Source of the DNA: a virus
Length of the DNA stretch: 20,177 bases
Reading direction: 5' to 3' (one strand)
IMG/VR virus record: IMGVR_UViG_3300003690_000335
Span: 1 to 20,177 of that record
The notes under the pieces are model-generated. The model was given only the letters and a program-made list of their open reading frames with translations. It made no database searches and was not told where the DNA came from. The translations under genes and the position numbers were made by a program. Positions 271 to 14,586 of this stretch are shown one piece after another; position 1 is the stretch's first letter; every line of letters begins with the position of its first letter.

Positions 271-317
271 AATAAAAAAGTGTAAGGCTGGATGCTTTTA
301 CGAGCAAGCACCCAGCC
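271..317 (-). terminator. Terminator-like hairpin overlapping promoter copy 1
   Basis: An 11-bp stem (286-296 with 307-317, one G.U pair in minus-strand RNA) closes a 10-nt loop and is followed on the minus strand by TTACACTTTTTTATT. It lies downstream of the small gene at 342-470 and would end that transcript. The same bases hold the -35 and -10 of the next promoter. Confidence 0.55.
279..307 (-). promoter_or_regulatory. Sigma70-type promoter of the shared early class, copy 1
   Basis: Minus strand: -35 TTGCTC (302-307), 17-nt spacer, -10 TACACT (279-284). The spacer carries GCATCC, matching the CGTCC box of the sister promoters at 975, 1573, 2105, 3039 and 3768. It faces the partial gene starting at 249. 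The -35 lies in the loop and arm of a terminator-like hairpin (286-317). Confidence 0.7.
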
Positions 318-341
318 CTCCCCCGATAAATTAGTTACGGG

Positions 342-1564: not shown

Positions 1565-1611
1565 ATATAAAAACAGTAAGGCAGGACGCTTTAACGAACA
1601 AGCGCCCTGCC
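1565..1611 (-). terminator. Terminator-like hairpin overlapping promoter copy 3
   Basis: A 12-bp stem (1580-1591 with 1600-1611, one G.U) closes an 8-nt loop and is followed on the minus strand by TTACTGTTTTTATATAG. It is just downstream of the 60-aa gene stop at 1626. The layout is the same as at 271-317, including the position of the G.U pair. Confidence 0.55.
1573..1601 (-). promoter_or_regulatory. Sigma70-type promoter of the shared early class, copy 3
   Basis: Minus strand: -35 TTGTTC (1596-1601), 17-nt spacer containing GCGTCC, -10 TACTGT (1573-1578). A TATAGCCAAT leader and AAAGGAG follow before the ATG at 1541. The whole promoter is folded into the hairpin at 1580-1611. Confidence 0.7.
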
Positions 1612-1625
1612 CTCCCAGCGACAAA

Positions 1626-2682: not shown

Positions 2683-2751
2683 GGCCCAATCCCCACCCTA
2701 TAGAGCGCCCGTAAACCGTGTCTACAGGGGCAAGATGGGTGGGGTAGGGCC
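2683..2751 (-). terminator. Long imperfect stem-loop between two early genes
   Basis: GGCCC..CCCCACCC (2683-2698) pairs with GGGTGGGG.AGGGCC (2737-2751), about 13 G/C-rich pairs with a small internal bulge. The 38-nt loop could fold further (GCCC with GGGC). It begins inside the last codon region of the gene at 2751-3011. No U-run follows on either strand, so a Rho-independent terminator is uncertain; an RNA processing or stability element is as likely. Confidence 0.4.
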
Positions 2752-3011
2752 TAGCCATTGGCGGCTATTTCGTGCGCCATGCGCGCACCGCCTTCTACGG
2801 TACGGGTAACGAAATGCCGTTGAAAATCCACATGCTTTGGGGATTTTTTATACGGCCCTGCATTACGAGCTAATGCATTCTGGCGAGCTTTTTTGGCGTC
2901 TGGGTGTGGTGCGAAAAAACTATCGCCCACTTTCATTTGGTCAAACGGGTATTTGTTTGATTTACTTGAAGGGCGGCAAAGCGGGATGCCTTTGTCAATT
3001 TTATAAGCCAT
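2751..3011 (-). CDS. Small conserved-type phage protein with YPFDQMKVGDSFF motif (86 aa)
   Basis: ATG at 3011 (MAYKIDKGIPLCRPSSKSNK) chosen for AAAGGAG about 6 nt upstream; a longer frame starts inside the promoter. The core YPFDQMKVGDSFFAP followed by a basic helix (DAKKARQNALARNAG) and the C-terminal FVTRTVEGGARMA resembles a small domain often seen in phage early regions, where 'YPF..M.VGDSFF' precedes a basic region and a T-R-x-V-x-G-G end. It may bind nucleic acid (inference from charge only). Promoter copy 5 lies directly upstream. Confidence 0.75.
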   Translation of the reverse strand: MAYKIDKGIPLCRPSSKSNKYPFDQMKVGDSFFAPHPDAKKARQNALARNAGPYKKSPKHVDFQRHFVTRTVEGGARMAHEIAANG

Positions 3012-3038
3012 GATATTCTCCTTTGGCTGGCCTATATA

Positions 3039-3067
3039 ATAGTATTGCGGGACGTTTTTATGAACAA
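3039..3067 (-). promoter_or_regulatory. Sigma70-type promoter of the shared early class, copy 5
   Basis: Minus strand: -35 TTGTTC (3062-3067), 17-nt spacer containing ACGTCC, -10 TACTAT (3039-3044), followed by TATATAGGCCAGCCAAAGGAG, which merges the AGCCA leader with the SD. Confidence 0.75.
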
Positions 3068-3098
3068 TATTCATATGGTCAATAGGATAAAATAATAG

Positions 3099-3230
3099 GT
3101 GCGGCGGTCGGCTAGATTAGCGGTACGGCTTCCTAACTGCCCCTTGGAGGAAACACACGCAAACCCCCAAGGTAGTCCTAAAACATGCAATAGAACGTAG
3201 AAAAAACCGCCGCAACATCTAGCCTTTTTG
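3099..3230. other. Structured intergenic region with two crossing inverted repeats
   Basis: The 279 bases between 3011 and 3291 hold promoter copy 5 and then this element; I see no convincing gene. A 9-bp pair (3100-3108 with 3206-3214) and an 8-bp pair (3110-3117 with 3217-3224), both perfect, are arranged A-B-A'-B'. They cannot nest: they form either a pseudoknot-like fold or alternatives. Inside is a CCTTGG/CCAAGG hairpin (3142-3172). The second repeat is followed by TTTTT on the plus strand. The minus strand contains GTTTCCTCCAAG (3154-3143), identical to the loop of the small RNA at 7318-7329. Strand and function are undetermined. Confidence 0.45.
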
Positions 3231-3290
3231 AGTGCTGGAAAGGATATGAGAACCCCAGCCCCTGACGCCGCCGCTCGCCTTGGTTATTGA

Positions 3291-6682: not shown

Positions 6683-7138
6683 TTAGACAAGTTCGATGAG
6701 TTCGATGTACCCTTTTTTCACGGCTTCTTGTAAATCACCGTGGCCTCCCACGAGAGGCTTGCCGTTATTACCACGCTTATCGGTGGTTTTCAAGGCAACC
6801 ATAAAGTCCCCAACGGTCATGCCGTCTTCAAATAGGGACCAAATTGCCGCTCGGTTAGTGCCTTCCCTCACAGGGTTTGGTCCACCCGTGAACTTAATAG
6901 TATGTCCACTAGGATAAACCGCGCTTTTCCGCTCGCGCGGCTGTGGCGGAGGCGCTGCTCGTATAGGGGAAATATTACTGACGGCTTCCGTGGTCTTGGT
7001 TACCGCGTTCAGTGCTTCCTCCCTACCGTTTTTGGATTCGCCGTTAGAAGCAGGTTTCTTTTTCGTGGCCCCAGAGGGCTTTGAATTTTTTGCCTTCTTC
7101 TTAACGGGTACATCCGTAATAGAAGCAACATTTGACAT
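6683..7138 (-). CDS. Lys-rich protein with C-terminal helical domain (151 aa)
   Basis: ATG at 7138 with AAGGGAG 8 nt upstream. Residues 1-80 are low-complexity and basic (VKKKAKNSKPSGATKKKPAS, PPPQPRERKSAV), probably disordered and nucleic-acid binding. Residues about 92-149 hold a compact domain: TNRAAIWSLFEDGMTVGDFM, then HGDLQEAVKKGYIELI. The same pattern (R-x-x-IW...GxTVxxFxxA...D+xxAxxxGYI) ends the 200-aa protein at 13984-14586, so the two share a domain resembling a winged helix. The genome-specific role is unknown. The gene lies between promoter copy 7 and a strong terminator, so it is monocistronic. Confidence 0.75.
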   Translation of the reverse strand: MSNVASITDVPVKKKAKNSKPSGATKKKPASNGESKNGREEALNAVTKTTEAVSNISPIRAAPPPQPRERKSAVYPSGHTIKFTGGPNPVREGTNRAAIWSLFEDGMTVGDFMVALKTTDKRGNNGKPLVGGHGDLQEAVKKGYIELIELV

Positions 7139-7176
7139 TATGGCATCTCCCTTCTGTTTGTTTTAGCCATACCCAT

Positions 7177-7204
7177 ATAATAGTTAGTGAAAAACAACGA
7201 GCAA
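7177..7204 (-). promoter_or_regulatory. Promoter of the shared early class, divergent variant
   Basis: Minus strand: -35 TTGCTC (7199-7204), 16-nt spacer, -10 TATTAT (7177-7182), followed by a GGTATGGCTA leader and AAGGGAG. The spacer lacks the GTCC box. It is back to back with the plus-strand promoter at 7213-7242. Confidence 0.6.
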
Positions 7205-7212
7205 TTATCTTG

Positions 7213-7242
7213 TTGTCAAATGGATAAAAAAGCGTGTAGACT
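7213..7242 (+). promoter_or_regulatory. Plus-strand promoter of the candidate small RNA
   Basis: -35 TTGTCA (7213-7218, 5 of 6 consensus bases), 18-nt spacer, -10 TAGACT (7237-7242, 4 of 6). It is the only good promoter I see pointing right, and nothing coding follows. Confidence 0.5.
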
Positions 7243-7248
7243 AAATCA

Positions 7249-7349
7249 TTAACCTCCCTGTTAGGCGCTGGTCATTCGTTGAGTATGGTTTCAAGCGCCT
7301 ATAACTCAGGCGCTGGGGTTTCCTCCAAGCCCCAGCGCCTTTCTTTTTT
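7249..7349 (+). ncRNA. Candidate plus-strand small RNA with C-rich anti-SD loops
   Basis: The start near 7249 is predicted from the promoter at 7213-7242; the end is a canonical terminator at 7308-7349. About 100 nt, with no credible open frame. Two stems are visible: TAGGCGCT/AGCGCCTA (7262-7269 with 7294-7301) and the terminator stem. An unpaired AACCTCCCTG lies at the 5' end and TTTCCTCC in the terminator loop; both could pair with Shine-Dalgarno sequences. GTTTCCTCCAA (7318-7328) is perfectly complementary to the ribosome-binding site of the TS-like gene (10919-10929). Everything else in this window is read leftward. The region 7139-7347 holds no gene. Confidence 0.55.
7308..7349 (+). terminator. 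Canonical plus-strand Rho-independent terminator
   Basis: A perfect 11-bp G/C-rich stem (7308-7318 with 7330-7340) and 11-nt loop are followed by TTTCTTTTTT on the plus strand. On the minus strand no U-run follows the stem, so it is oriented to stop rightward transcription. Confidence 0.8.
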
Positions 7350-7614
7350 ACTTATCCTTGTAACCCGTTTCCTTCCACCTTTTCATCTTTTCATGGGTTC
7401 CCCAACAACCAGTGGGAGACTCATTATAGAAAAACCGCACTATCTCAGGAAGCGCGGCTAGGCTAGTGTCATCAGCATGGCTTATAGCAAGAAACAGGTT
7501 ATTGGTGATAACAGCGGTGAGAAAATCCCCAGGCGGGACACCCTGTTCTATGTATCGCTTTACACCGCCTTGTAGATGCTGGGGCAAGCGCCCATAATCT
7601 AGGTCTTGTATCAT
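7348..7614 (-). CDS. Small conserved-type phage protein (88 aa)
   Basis: ATG at 7614 with AAAGGAG about 8 nt upstream. The sequence MIQDLDYGRLPQHLQGGVKR continues YIEQGVPPGDFLTAVITNNL and ends with RFFYNESPTGCWGTHEKMKR. The blocks 'RYIE.G.PPG.FL.AV..N.L', 'AD' and 'F.YNE.P.GCWG....+..W' look like a short family recurrent in phages (recall), function unknown. It lies between DNA polymerase and the small-RNA locus; its stop codon overlaps the U-tract of the opposing terminator. Confidence 0.8.
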   Translation of the reverse strand: MIQDLDYGRLPQHLQGGVKRYIEQGVPPGDFLTAVITNNLFLAISHADDTSLAALPEIVRFFYNESPTGCWGTHEKMKRWKETGYKDK

Positions 7615-9605: not shown

Positions 9606-9930
9606 CTGGCTTTTCTCTTACATAAATATAATCAGGTTGTATGTGCCCTAATCGTACCATTTCTGCTTCAACCAGTAAAAGATATCTTCGCAAATCCCGT
9701 ATATCGTCAATTACACCTGTTTCTTCTGGGTGTTCTTCAATAGTGCGGAATATGTCGTAAGAATATTTTTGCGCGAGGTTTTCAATGCGGTCCCATTTAC
9801 GGGCCAGCATCATGAAAGCCCCTAATCCACCACGCTTTTTCCAACTATTGCCATAGGTTTTTTCCGCTTCGCATAAGGAAGGGTGGTCATTAAGGCACAG
9901 GTCCTGCACAATTTCTAGAATACTACGCAT
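9580..9930 (-). CDS. YGxSW helical phage protein, possibly Nmad1/DUF1599-like (116 aa)
   Basis: ATG at 9930 with AAAGGAGG about 6 nt upstream, overlapping the TS-like stop by 8 nt. The signature is KTYGNSWKKRGGLGAFMMLA, RKWDRIENLA, then GVIDDIRDLRRYLLLVEAEM. 'YG.SW...GG...F...K.DR', followed by 'D.I.DL..YL', resembles the all-helical 'nucleotide modification associated domain 1' (DUF1599) described near DNA-modification genes. The family call is from memory. Its place between the TS-like gene and polymerase supports a nucleotide-metabolism role. A MazG-like fold is an alternative. Confidence 0.7.
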   Translation of the reverse strand: MRSILEIVQDLCLNDHPSLCEAEKTYGNSWKKRGGLGAFMMLARKWDRIENLAQKYSYDIFRTIEEHPEETGVIDDIRDLRRYLLLVEAEMVRLGHIQPDYIYVREKPDADTTVST

Positions 9931-10918
9931 TTGGCTTCCTCCTTTCTAACCATATGGTGCAAGCCTGTTGCCAGTCTTGGATAGGCATTTGCGACTTAAC
10001 CGTATCAAAGGCGGCTTGCCATTGTCCATTTTTCCAATGGTCCCAGGCTTTGGTCATGGGTTCAATTAATTCTTTATAAAAGGATGACTTATAAAACATA
10101 GCGTCACCAAAATCAAGGTCACGGGGTATTTTGAACCTTGTGTGGGTAAAATCATCATAAGGTTCCCGGCTTCGGTACGGCAACCCTTCCTCAGGTATGC
10201 GGTATGCGTCAAATATATCTCTGTAGGCGTGGAAACTGTCACTTATTTGGATATACGGCCCCATTTCAATATCAAGGCAATCGGCAATGTACTGTTGCAG
10301 CATACTGAACTGCACCGCATTGGCTCCATAGGCCCCCCAGATAATGTCGTTACTGCGACAGCATACGGTCATGTGTAATTTATTCAAGTACCCTGACCTA
10401 TCGTCGCCACCCAGTTCATCACGTATTTTGAAATATATATGCGTGTTGCAGGGGATATCAACCTTGTTGACATTTAAGTCGTGCGGGGCATCCCACATTT
10501 GTAGAACACAACGGCGGTCATCAGGGTCTCTTCCCAAGCGGCGAATAATTATCTTAACCTGATCGAGCACCCTGTAGTCTTGCGTGAAATGCTTACGCCA
10601 CCGATAGCCATATGCTCCATGGAATATTTCACCGTCATCACTGTAATCATCCATGCGCTTGTTGTAGTGAACCAAGGGTTTCACATCCCTTTGGCCGCGC
10701 AGCATCCACAGGCTTTCCATTAAATGAAAAAACGGGTTGGCATCACGCACAGGGTTGAATAGCACACGCTCCCAAGGCTTTTCGTAAACTGTCGCCACGC
10801 AGGTAGGGTGTTCTAAAACGGTACCTGCGCGTGACTTGCGTTCAACGCCTTCTTCATACAGAAGTTTCATCCCGCCTACAAAGGCGTCACTTACATTCCG
10901 GGCATGTATAGTGTGCAT
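9923..10918 (-). CDS. Thymidylate synthase / dUMP hydroxymethylase homologue
   Basis: 331 aa from the ATG at 10918, chosen for GGAGGAAAC directly upstream; 25 extra in-frame codons at 5' overlap the upstream gene. TS landmarks are visible: E68 and W71 (MESLWML), YGYRWR (103-108), RR at 135-136 (phosphate), catalytic C157 (DIPCNTHIYF), RSND at 188-191, N200 in GAYGANAVQFS, and H230/Y232 (DSFHAY). The family adds a one-carbon unit to C5 of dUMP using methylene-tetrahydrofolate. Some phage members transfer hydroxymethyl to make 5-hmdUMP. The long insert in the N200 loop and the neighbouring thymine-modification genes favour hydroxymethylase (inference); thymidylate synthase is the alternative. 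The RBS is complementary to the small RNA at 7249-7349. Confidence 0.9.
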   Translation of the reverse strand: MHTIHARNVSDAFVGGMKLLYEEGVERKSRAGTVLEHPTCVATVYEKPWERVLFNPVRDANPFFHLMESLWMLRGQRDVKPLVHYNKRMDDYSDDGEIFHGAYGYRWRKHFTQDYRVLDQVKIIIRRLGRDPDDRRCVLQMWDAPHDLNVNKVDIPCNTHIYFKIRDELGGDDRSGYLNKLHMTVCCRSNDIIWGAYGANAVQFSMLQQYIADCLDIEMGPYIQISDSFHAYRDIFDAYRIPEEGLPYRSREPYDDFTHTRFKIPRDLDFGDAMFYKSSFYKELIEPMTKAWDHWKNGQWQAAFDTVKSQMPIQDWQQACTIWLERRKPNA

Positions 10919-10977
10919 GTTTCCTCCAATTAGGCACCTACCCCTACTGTACTTGTTTCTTGCCCCTTCAGGGGGCC

Positions 10978-11976
10978 TTACAGGGCCTCCCAAGGGCGTT
11001 TTATTACCTTGGTATAAGGCCCCAAAGCCAAAGCACGAGCAACCGCTTTTTTATCGTTGTTGGTTACGGCAGGCCAGATCTTTTGGCCTTTGTGGTCGGG
11101 CAATAATCCAGGGCGATATGTTAAGGCATCGCAGCCTGCACATGGACCAAATTCTCTGTCTCCTTCGTACAACATTGCTCGCATGGCATTGAATTCTTCA
11201 GCCTGCCAGATTGTATTCAAAGGCGTGTCGAAAGCATTGCCTATTCTGTAGTAGCCGCGCCAGTCATTACAGCATCCAGCAACGTTACCATCCCAACGTA
11301 TGCTCATTTCCCTGAAGGGCTTTCCACACCGTCGGCCAACGGCTTTGTCATTAGGCGGGAAGGCGGAGCCGCAATGGTTATTCAAACTGGCATGGTTACC
11401 GGACGTAGCATTTGATATATCGTCCACTACAACAATGTCATGGTCGGTTGGTTTGCGTCGCCTGTGCGGATTAGCCGACTTAACCAAGGGGTAATCGTAA
11501 ATAGGATGCGGCCCTTTGTAGAGCAACTTTACCTTTGGAACAATGTTCACAGCTTCATAGTTGTCTAAAAGCAATACGTTCAAACCTGCCTGCATCAGCG
11601 TGTTAATTTTATCAGTGGTATCGCCCCCTAGTAATCCACCGCCATTACTGGTCATCATTAGGTGAGTCGTGGGTAGGTATTCACGCAACACGCGCACTAT
11701 TTCCACATGGTCAGGATTCATGGTTGGTTCACCATGCATTGCCATTTCTATACGAGGATTCCATTTACGGCCTTCTGTGTGGGCCTCTTGTAAACTTGTG
11801 GCAAACCATGCAGCGTTCTCAACCGTCATGAACTTATACGGCTTGCTGCTCTTGCCTGTTGTATTGCTTGGTCCATGCGCCCCATTGTCACGTATGCCCT
11901 GAATACCGCAAAATGAGCAAGCTAGATTGCAGCCTTCGGTTAGTTCAAATTGGATACAGAACGGTGGTTCCTGCAT
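10978..11976 (-). CDS. Radical SAM enzyme with SPASM-like C-terminal cysteines
   Basis: 332 aa. CNLACSFC (C16, C20, C23) is the radical-SAM CxxxCxxC that holds the SAM-binding [4Fe-4S] cluster. HGEPTMNPDHVEI (about 88-100) is the glycine-rich 'GGEP'-type SAM motif. The C-terminal half has more cysteines (RRCGKPFREMSIRWDGNVAG then CCNDW; GPCAGCD), as in SPASM-type auxiliary clusters. It starts at TAATG, overlapping the glycosyltransferase stop, so translation is coupled. Radical-SAM proteins accompany thymine hypermodification genes in several phages, where they remodel the side chain on C5 of thymine. Here the substrate is unknown; modified DNA or a nucleotide is the natural guess from context. 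Confidence 0.9.
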   Translation of the reverse strand: MQEPPFCIQFELTEGCNLACSFCGIQGIRDNGAHGPSNTTGKSSKPYKFMTVENAAWFATSLQEAHTEGRKWNPRIEMAMHGEPTMNPDHVEIVRVLREYLPTTHLMMTSNGGGLLGGDTTDKINTLMQAGLNVLLLDNYEAVNIVPKVKLLYKGPHPIYDYPLVKSANPHRRRKPTDHDIVVVDDISNATSGNHASLNNHCGSAFPPNDKAVGRRCGKPFREMSIRWDGNVAGCCNDWRGYYRIGNAFDTPLNTIWQAEEFNAMRAMLYEGDREFGPCAGCDALTYRPGLLPDHKGQKIWPAVTNNDKKAVARALALGPYTKVIKRPWEAL

Positions 11977-12947
11977 TAGTCAGCCGCTTTCAAAAAGTTT
12001 TCCCACGCAACTATGGTTTGGTCATCCAGGTCAGTTAGGTAGTCGTGTTTAAAAAGCTCTCGCTGTTCACGGGCAATTTGCTCATATGTAGGGAGAGCCT
12101 CCAGCACATCTTCGGCAGAATTTACCACAGGAAATAAATAATCGCCCTTACCAGGAAAAGCTGTTTTCATTGTGTTGCTCGTACTTTCATCAAAAAACAT
12201 GGCTACCCCCGCCGATAAACATTCATAAAAACGATTGGCGGGTGAATTGTAATGCGTGTGGATATGCTCGTCTTCAATATAAACAGTAGCTGCAAACTTA
12301 GACAAGTCCTGTATAGACTTCCAGCTACCATGCCGAGTCATATTTGGAGCAAGCGCCTTGAATTTTTCAATGGCTTTCCCATTGGTAGATATATGCACGG
12401 GATACGGCGCGTCTTCAAAGTACTTTTTGAAATAGGGTTCCCTATCTTTCCTATAGGCCCCATAGTACATCAAGCCCTGAACCTTGTTCTTAAAGTCAAT
12501 TTCTTCAAGTGGTAAAGGATCCCATGTTAAAAGGTTCCAGTTAACATAAGCATTTCCAGGACCAGTGGCATTTTCAGGAATATTACTCCATATGAAAGGA
12601 GGAGCAGTATCAAAAGGCTGCTTAAAAGACCAACCACGTTCATCACGCAATACTTTCTGTACTTGACTAATGGGCTGCACAGTATAGTCGTTTTGAACAT
12701 AAATTAAATTCTTGCACCTGCGGATTTGATCAGCCAGTTCCACACGCAATTCAGCCTCAGCAAAAGCTCCCATACTGTTGACGTACAAAATTGTGTCATA
12801 AGTGTGGCGTAAAAAAGGCCGACCCCGCTGTATGCCGTCAACTAAATCTGCATTTAAATGGTTGGCAAGATACTGTGCAACTCGCGCGCTGGCTATGCTA
12901 GTCTTGGGACTGCAATAGGTCAGGTGTACTACGCAAATGTTCCTCAT
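11976..12947 (-). CDS. Glycosyltransferase-like protein (GT-B type)
   Basis: 323 aa from the ATG at 12947 (MRNICVVHLTYCSPKTSIAS), chosen because AAAGGAG lies 7 nt upstream; the open frame to 13040 is non-genic. The N-terminal Rossmann-like half has NLIYVQNDYTVQPI. The C-terminal half has GLMYYGAYRKDREPYFKKYF and YNSPANRFYECLSAGVAMFF, the 'NR..E.L..G' nucleotide-sugar-binding pattern of GT-B enzymes. In this context it could glycosylate hydroxymethyl-uracil DNA, as the T4 alpha/beta glucosyltransferases do for hydroxymethyl-cytosine. Donor and acceptor cannot be read from sequence. It overlaps the upstream gene by 50 nt and is followed by the radical-SAM gene. Confidence 0.8.
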   Translation of the reverse strand: MRNICVVHLTYCSPKTSIASARVAQYLANHLNADLVDGIQRGRPFLRHTYDTILYVNSMGAFAEAELRVELADQIRRCKNLIYVQNDYTVQPISQVQKVLRDERGWSFKQPFDTAPPFIWSNIPENATGPGNAYVNWNLLTWDPLPLEEIDFKNKVQGLMYYGAYRKDREPYFKKYFEDAPYPVHISTNGKAIEKFKALAPNMTRHGSWKSIQDLSKFAATVYIEDEHIHTHYNSPANRFYECLSAGVAMFFDESTSNTMKTAFPGKGDYLFPVVNSAEDVLEALPTYEQIAREQRELFKHDYLTDLDDQTIVAWENFLKAAD

Positions 12948-13893
12948 TAGTTTTCTCCTTTCTACGAGCACGATACCGCGCCCACTTGGAACGTTCTTGC
13001 CCTGGCGGTTGATAAATGCTGCGCGGCTTTCCCTCACCATTTGTTACGCGCTGGTATTTATCAAACTCACATAGGCAATGTTCTATCTCTCTCATTTCTA
13101 ATGTAGGTACAAACGATTCTTTTTCCTCGTTTGCTATCTTCAATAGGAGCATCATTTCCCTGTTCCAATTATGCATTCTAGAGGAAAATTTCAATGGCCG
13201 ACCAAAGACCCTGTTAAGACCGCGCTTGGCTCCAGGACCAGCATTCGCCCATGTGTTAATATCTGTCGCATTTTCCAATACAGGTGTATGGCGCAAGTCA
13301 CTTACAAGTTCATAGGCCATGAACCCACCACCGCCCCAGCCTTTAAGTTTTCCCAGGTTTTGATGCATGTGTTGTATATTTCCCTTGCTTGCAATATCAG
13401 ACAATAGCTGCCTGTAATCCCAAATAGCAAACAAGAATTCATCTACAACAATATTTTCTTTAGGGTCTTTTTTACCCTGATTTGTGATGATATAGGCTCC
13501 CGTGAACACCTTTTTCTTATTGTCCAAACGCTCACGGGCGGTACGCTTAAGATGTTCAGGGTTGTGGGTTTCTTGCCAGCCGCCAATAGCTTCGCACATT
13601 TCCATGGTGCCGAACATACGAAACACGGCGCAGTTATAAATCATCAAAGCATGGGGTTTGTTGGCATTTGGATTGGTTAGGTGTTCACGCATCCAAACCG
13701 TGGTTTTATCAAGCTCGCGAAACACATTCGTAAACTTGTACTTTTGTAAAATTTCATCCTCGGTCCAAGGCCACTTGAGCCCTTCTTCTTTTCTAAGATA
13801 AATATGATGACGTTTATTTATCCAATCTACAAAATTCCTGCCCAATGGCAAATTACCAATGAACGGTTGGTCTAAAAAAGTATTGATCGACAA
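12898..13893 (-). CDS. alpha-Glutamyl/putrescinyl-thymine pyrophosphorylase-like (5-hmdU kinase helical-domain) protein
   Basis: 331 aa from a TTG at 13893 with AAAGGAG 6 nt upstream. LKWPWTEDEILQKYKFTNVF then RELDKTTVWMREHL is the signature I associate with the all-helical domain of thymine-modifying phage enzymes (aG/PT-PPlase, also fused to 5-hmdU kinases). Further support: GWGGGGFMAYELVSDLRHTP, INTWANAGPGAKRGLNRVFG and MREIEHCLCEFDKYQRV. There is no P-loop, so it is not itself a kinase. Known members displace pyrophosphate from 5-(PPO-methyl)uracil in DNA and attach amino acids or amines. The gene starts the run of modification genes; family assignment is by motif recall. Confidence 0.8.
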   Translation of the reverse strand: MSINTFLDQPFIGNLPLGRNFVDWINKRHHIYLRKEEGLKWPWTEDEILQKYKFTNVFRELDKTTVWMREHLTNPNANKPHALMIYNCAVFRMFGTMEMCEAIGGWQETHNPEHLKRTARERLDNKKKVFTGAYIITNQGKKDPKENIVVDEFLFAIWDYRQLLSDIASKGNIQHMHQNLGKLKGWGGGGFMAYELVSDLRHTPVLENATDINTWANAGPGAKRGLNRVFGRPLKFSSRMHNWNREMMLLLKIANEEKESFVPTLEMREIEHCLCEFDKYQRVTNGEGKPRSIYQPPGQERSKWARYRARRKEKTNEEHLRSTPDLLQSQD

Positions 13894-13983: not shown

Positions 13984-14586
13984 TTATTTGCTTGACTCAG
14001 TAGCTTTATAAACTTTGATGTACCCCGCTTTTTCGGCAAGCTGAATATCCTTCGCGCTGCCTGGAAGACCGGCTTCCCTGATAGCTGCTATGAATTCAGC
14101 TACCGTGATGCCCTTTTGAATATAAGACCAGATCTTATATTTTGTGGTTCCTGGGCGAATTGGGATCTTATTACTAATTATTTCAATTCGATCCTCACGG
14201 CCATATAATCTGGGCCGCTTAATTCCGGTTTTTGATAACTTAACTGTTACCTCTTCCCGTACTTCATTTAAATCTGTGATAGTAGACATTGCACCCTTCC
14301 TATAAGGTTTCGCCTTGGTTAAAATAGTCTCCCAAACAACCCTAGCTAAATCATCTTTGTAAATTGTTTGGGAAGACTTGTACTTTACCACTTTAGGGAA
14401 AGAGAGCAAACAGTGAATTCCAATAAGCTCATCTTCATCATATGCGCTTTTTACATCACCAGCTTCACATAGTACTGGAGTAAATTTATCTATAAAACCA
14501 GACGATTTTGCTTCGCCAACACTTTTAAATTTCATGGCGTAAGAGGCGTCCTTTTTATAATCATCAACCACCGCGTAGCAAATCAT
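13984..14586 (-). CDS. Two-part protein with C-terminal domain shared with the 151-aa protein (200 aa)
   Basis: ATG at 14586 with AAAGGAG upstream. Residues 1-99 (MICYAVVDDYKKDASYAMKF, IGIHCLLSFPKVVKYKSSQT) form one domain of unknown fold. From residue 100 (MSTITDLNEVREEVTVKLSK) a basic linker leads to the terminal domain RPGTTKYKIWSYIQKGITVA then EFIAAIREAGLPGSAKDIQL, and GYIKV. That domain matches the end of the protein at 6683-7138. An in-frame ATG at 14289 (residue 100) has AGGAAGGG close upstream, so the C-terminal part may also be made alone. A DNA-binding role is possible. A terminator/promoter overlap lies directly upstream. Confidence 0.75.
   Translation of the reverse strand: MICYAVVDDYKKDASYAMKFKSVGEAKSSGFIDKFTPVLCEAGDVKSAYDEDELIGIHCLLSFPKVVKYKSSQTIYKDDLARVVWETILTKAKPYRKGAMSTITDLNEVREEVTVKLSKTGIKRPRLYGREDRIEIISNKIPIRPGTTKYKIWSYIQKGITVAEFIAAIREAGLPGSAKDIQLAEKAGYIKVYKATESSK

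Follow-up and report, generated by a model that had tools for sequence, protein, structure and literature searches.

A predicted small RNA gene with two conserved anti-Shine-Dalgarno-like stretches in an uncultured tailed phage

Positions 7213-7349 of the phage DNA analysed here are best read, with a probability of roughly two in three, as a stand-alone gene for a phage small RNA (sRNA) of ~100 nt, which probably acts in trans and carries two C-rich seeds that would occlude Shine-Dalgarno (SD) sites. Judged from its sequence, the element may define a new family of phage sRNAs whose seeds are anti-SD (aSD), so far present in three related phages.

Genomic setting, promoter and terminator

The analysed stretch (the window) comprises 20,177 nt and is part of a 23,175-base IMG/VR virus record. 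Its likely genes are leftward and those next to the element lie on the minus strand, in agreement with the first-pass annotation, which had described the region as leftward-transcribed. The intergenic gap (7139-7347) is located between a gene for a 151-aa protein (6683-7138, minus strand), which is divergent to the sRNA unit, and an 88-aa gene (7348-7614, minus strand), whose stop codon overlaps the 3' end of the predicted sRNA. The 151-aa protein is without a PHROG or Pfam match. It has a C-terminal domain (GTxxxxIWSxxxxGxTVxxF...DxQxAxxxGYI) in common with a 200-aa protein (13984-14586), for which a PHROG match is also absent.

Three close contigs were identified by scanning with the DNA polymerase A encoded nearby. 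Two of them, L002 (IMGVR 3300038315_001114) and L082 (IMGVR 3300006754_000584), include the gap, while the third, L003, stops within polA. The 151-aa gene is 77-79% and the 88-aa gene 75-77% identical in both relatives.

The plus-strand promoter (7213-7242) is present as it had been described, with TTGTCA as the -35 element (7213-7218), TAGACT as the -10 element (7237-7242) and a spacer of 18 nt. Taken alone it is a modest match to the consensus (9/12), and promoter-like sites occur in the window at chance level (32 found and 32.1 expected). The intrinsic terminator (7308-7349, plus strand) consists of a stem (7308-7318/7330-7340) followed by a U-tract (7341-7349), and the tail at 7340-7349 reads TTTCTTTTTT. 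The stem contains 11 uninterrupted pairs, nine of them G-C, or 14 pairs when a G-U and A-U extension is counted, and lies 65 nt from the -10 element; the perfect 11-bp terminator claimed earlier at ~70 nt after the promoter is thus confirmed. Strong terminators are enriched in the window (3 observed against 0.005 per shuffle). Dinucleotide shuffling of the window placed a promoter 40-150 nt before a strong terminator in 0 of 200 trials, and the predicted RNA folds better than its shuffles (z = -5.9); the promoter-terminator pattern is therefore not due to chance. Two similar leftward terminators are found elsewhere in the window (284-319 and 1578-1613, minus strand; AGGGCTGGGTGCTTGCTCGTAAAAGCATCCAGCCTT and AGGGCAGGGCGCTTGTTCGTTAAAGCGTCCTGCCTT) and are apparently related copies.

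A leftward promoter for the 151-aa gene (7177-7204, minus strand), which was missing from the earlier feature list, stands back to back with the sRNA promoter. It reads TTGCTC-16-TATTAT, with its -35 element at 7204-7199 and its -10 element at 7182-7177, and is kept as TTGTTC-17-TATAAT in L002 and L082. The earlier claim that no open frame lies between promoter and terminator has to be qualified, as a plus-strand frame of 60 aa with a TTG start is present at 7279-7461. However, this frame passes through the terminator and is without a counterpart in the relatives, and comparison of the window, L002 and L082 revealed no conserved open reading frame in the gap on either strand.

Predicted structure of the RNA

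The predicted sRNA (7249-7349, plus strand) is ~101 nt long in the window and 110-113 nt in the relatives, its 5' end being placed from the position of the -10 element. The ~100-nt plus-strand RNA with a 5' single-stranded stretch, as proposed earlier, is well reproduced by the prediction: the first 13 nt, UUAACCUCCCUGU (7249-7261), are identical at 13/13 positions in the three phages, with an unpaired probability of 0.83-0.91. They are followed by hairpin 1 (7262-7301; stem 7262-7269/7294-7301), which the first-pass annotation lacked and whose stem is kept in the relatives, and then by the terminator hairpin, which exposes the second C-rich stretch, UUUCCUCC (7319-7326), in its loop. UUCCUCC is invariant in this loop in the three phages. 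Both C-rich invariant stretches are complementary to SD sequences and mostly unpaired (predicted probability 0.74-1.00). The C-rich terminator loop noticed earlier is present in the fold common to the three phages, where it measures 10-11 nt with UUCCUCC inside, but the window's own minimum-energy fold adds UU-AA pairs that narrow it to CCUCC. The U-tract is present, and the RNA may need Hfq.

Conservation in related phages

The sRNA unit is found in L002 and L082 at the same place and in the same orientation as in the window. Across the three phages there is no change in the -35 element TTGTCA, in the 13-nt UUAACCUCCCUGU or in UUCCUCC at the core of the loop, and both hairpins and the U-tract are kept. 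Among neighbouring coding DNA that is ~76% identical between window and relatives, hairpin 1 as a whole is only 47-49% identical, its loop having diverged and gained additional letters in the relatives. The -10 element is different in every copy (TAGACT in the window, TTGTCA-17-TAGAGT and TTGTCA-17-TAAAGT as the relatives' promoters), and each of the three promoters scores 9/12. Loss of both promoter and terminator in relatives, named in advance as a result to set against the gene, is seen in neither L002 nor L082, and the retention of promoter, stems, U-tract and both unpaired C-rich stretches in these two phages supports the reading as a plus-strand sRNA gene with C-rich seeds. Since two of the three sRNA-bearing genomes are close (about 93% alike), the alignment amounts to about two independent comparisons.

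In L002 an insertion of ~0.85 kb, placed precisely at the junction, separates the sRNA terminator from the 88-aa gene, and the unit from promoter to terminator is intact. The insertion directly adjoins the terminator and leaves the unit untouched, which argues that the sRNA unit is discrete. The inserted DNA (L002:6043-6895), which is missing from the window and L082, encodes a 111-aa IS1595-type zinc-ribbon protein, in which no catalytic part of a transposase is seen, and a 95-aa open reading frame. The L082 contig ends (13168-13288) in a tandem array of the 16-nt unit TAATATGCAACTCTGC.

Searches beyond the close relatives yielded no further copies. A covariance model (R1) detected the sRNA only in the window, L002 and L082 among 83 sources; the match it gave in L070 (E 0.013) is no homologue but a terminator that follows a convergent frame. 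Strong terminators whose loop contains CCUCC were found in the searched phage DNA only in the same three phages and, in a weaker form (8 pairs), in L004. Scans of viral contigs with loop, seed or both patterns returned only L002, L082 and two matches due to chance, located within coding genes of L100 and L101. Searches with the 88-aa and 151-aa proteins recovered L002 and L082 again, plus a distant 88-aa homologue in L086, around which no sRNA-like element is seen. Comparison by blastn with phages and plasmids gave nothing significant, and no similar unit appeared among terminators antisense to polA-downstream DNA in the more distant relatives scanned. No host was found by a PolA scan of genome contigs; the nearest isolates by PolA and primase have Pelagibacter, a gammaproteobacterium or unknown hosts.

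The window also contains a strongly conserved noncoding gap ahead of a 107-aa gene (2751-3074), at 3075-3290 on the minus strand (L082:5330-5565). Two crossing complementary pairs, GGCUAGAU/AUCUAGCC and GCGGCGGU/ACCGCCGC, suggest that this gap may encode a pseudoknotted leader RNA. A middle hairpin is present in the window and missing from L082, and the gap gave no Rfam match even at E 2.

Mode of action and candidate targets

A sigma-70-type promoter of its own, placed back to back with that of the 151-aa gene, probably drives the sRNA rightward, and transcription would stop at the sRNA's own terminator. The RNA would then present two aSD-like stretches, UUAACCUCCCUGU at its 5' end and UUCCUCC in the loop, which most likely pair with SD regions of mRNAs, hindering ribosome loading and favouring decay. 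Occlusion of ribosome binding sites (RBSs) is considered the most likely action because aSD sRNAs are established to act in this way: NfeR1 silences mRNAs such as ntrB by means of unpaired, C-rich aSD motifs (PMC10746234), and AbcR and SisA sRNAs, which bear C-rich aSD motifs, are described as acting similarly (PMC7143759, PMC12559287). The targets would probably be host mRNAs and perhaps also mRNAs of the phage itself, among which a thymidylate-synthase-like gene is the best internal candidate.

That the sRNA acts mainly within the phage, covering SDs of its own genes such as this one, which may be involved in thymine modification, is possible but on balance unlikely. The SD of the thymidylate-synthase-like gene (9923-10918), UUGGAGGAAAC (10919-10929, minus strand), immediately precedes the AUG at 10918 and is perfectly complementary to the terminator loop over 11 nt, an extent that only 66 of 20000 random CCUCC loops (about 0.3%) attain. 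The start region of this gene also ranks first of 31 by cofold (-12.6 kcal/mol). However, the complementarity stands only weakly above controls: 6 of 300 control stretches bind equally well, and comparable scores are reached by some GGAGG sites located away from start regions. In L002 the match shrinks from 11 to 9 nt with no compensating change, so that loop and target show no covariation, and the L082 contig does not cover the gene. Because of the shorter match in L002 and the similar scores of other GGAGG sites, the thymidylate-synthase SD is regarded as a candidate only; complementarity to SD sequences is generic and therefore establishes no target. A 12-nt complement of the loop at 3143-3154 (plus strand) was dropped as a target since it is absent in L082. 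The thymidylate-synthase-like protein, a possible dUMP hydroxymethylase, belongs to a gene set of the thymine hypermodification type (9923-13893), together with a radical SAM/SPASM protein, a 354-aa protein and a 5-hmdU DNA kinase (PF18723).

Comparison with known small RNA families

With its own promoter and terminator, no conserved open reading frame and a conserved unpaired seed, the locus has the features of an intrinsically terminated sRNA gene, and no Rfam family scores above its cut-off for it. On sequence grounds we liken its presumed action to that of alpha-r14/NfeR1, alpha-r8/MmgR/SisA, AbcR and SmelC671 without filing it as a member of any of them.

Alpha-r14 (NfeR1/Smr14C2, RF02344) is similar in its length of ~120 nt and in having aSD motifs in unpaired stretches and the terminator loop, and, when aligned to it, the L082 copy has UCCUCCC in the loop. 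However, alpha-r14 has three hairpins with CCUCCUCCC in each, while the phage sRNA has two hairpins and the motifs CCUCCC and UUCCUCC; membership was rejected, as L082 reaches 22.5 bits against a cut-off of 58.8 in a 131-nt search, with no match at genome scale. The alpha-r8 sRNAs (MmgR, SisA-D; RF00519 suhB) are likewise small trans-acting RNAs that possess a terminator and, as their aSD motif, a 10-mer. RF00519 is the best sub-threshold Rfam match (29.3 bits in L082, 17.0 in the window and 14.4 in L002; cut-off 41), but it also matches 13 of 14 control genomes, in one of them above the cut-off; the weak match is thus unspecific and alpha-r8 membership was rejected. An alpha-r7 assignment was discarded because the Rfam match is below the cut-off. 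AbcR1/2 (alpha-r15) resemble the phage sRNA in two unpaired CU-rich aSD motifs thought to block RBSs (PMC7143759), but they have three stem-loops and are encoded in tandem on host chromosomes; no AbcR match was reported in the Rfam scans of the sRNA. In the SmelC671 family of Rhizobiales, a conserved CUCCCUGU is located in a single-stranded domain before the terminator (PMC3927594). The phage 5' seed includes exactly this CUCCCUGU, also unpaired, a likeness that is a lead only, drawn by comparison with the published description. The arrangement differs, as CUCCCUGU lies there between two hairpins, whereas here it is at the 5' end of the predicted RNA with no hairpin upstream.

As a small RNA of a phage genome that would control host or phage mRNAs, the element is also comparable to AgvB, AsxR, 24B_1, sar, OOP and PAK_P4as15. 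In the available part of PMC12197685, phage-encoded sRNAs come mostly from enterobacterial temperate phages or are cis-antisense, and no phage sRNA with two aSD seeds was found described there. We consider it doubtful, though conceivable, that the sRNA imitates the aSD sRNAs of a host that may be an alphaproteobacterium, as a broad silencer of strong-SD host mRNAs that also times the phage's own DNA-modification genes. An action as sponge or mimic in the manner of the phage-encoded anti-sRNAs AgvB and AsxR, with the C-rich seeds either titrating a regulator of the host or competing for targets or Hfq with the host's own aSD sRNAs, is improbable: phage-encoded sponges do exist (PMC12559287, PMC4104026) and the motifs match host-type aSD seeds, but such seeds would mimic host aSD sRNAs and not titrate them.

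Covariation and strand polarity

In the three-phage alignment, 98.3% of the stem cells pair. The comparison among related phages proposed earlier for covariation gave a mixed outcome: the stems are kept, with one both-sides change (U-A to A-U) in the stem of hairpin 1, but within-column pairing shuffles equal the observed covariation in 156 of 500 cases. As three sequences are compared and two of these are closely related, covariation does not reach significance by itself, and it is the combination of features that carries the case for the sRNA.

The one-sided changes in the stems consist solely of G-U/A-U or G-U/G-C exchanges on the plus strand. The plus strand looks constrained, since its G-U states, read on the minus strand, would become C-A mismatches. 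This bears on the highly unlikely alternative that the minus strand is functional, with GGA/GGAGG loops of the leftward mRNA binding CsrA/RsmA-type proteins or ribosomes, or stabilizing or processing the mRNA. Both hairpins, with GGAGG in a loop, also form on that strand; however, its fold in the gap has a z of only -1.8, a U-tract follows the hairpin on the plus strand only in all three phages, and the plus-strand promoter is conserved. Equally hard to credit is a mere insulator, a terminator with a cryptic promoter keeping rightward antisense transcription out of the leftward genes: the terminator is indeed strong, conserved and placed right where the neighbouring gene ends, but an insulator could do without hairpin 1, an invariant loop, an invariant and unpaired stretch of 13 nt at the 5' end and a conserved promoter 65 nt upstream.

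Significance

Small RNAs of phages are known mainly from enterobacterial prophages. Here, a conserved, free-standing sRNA gene appears to sit among genes for replication and DNA modification in an uncultured phage. If the proposed reading is true, its two invariant aSD seeds would provide the phage with a simple route to take over host translation, and the finding suggests that further such genes may be hidden in the reverse-strand gaps of environmental phage genomes.
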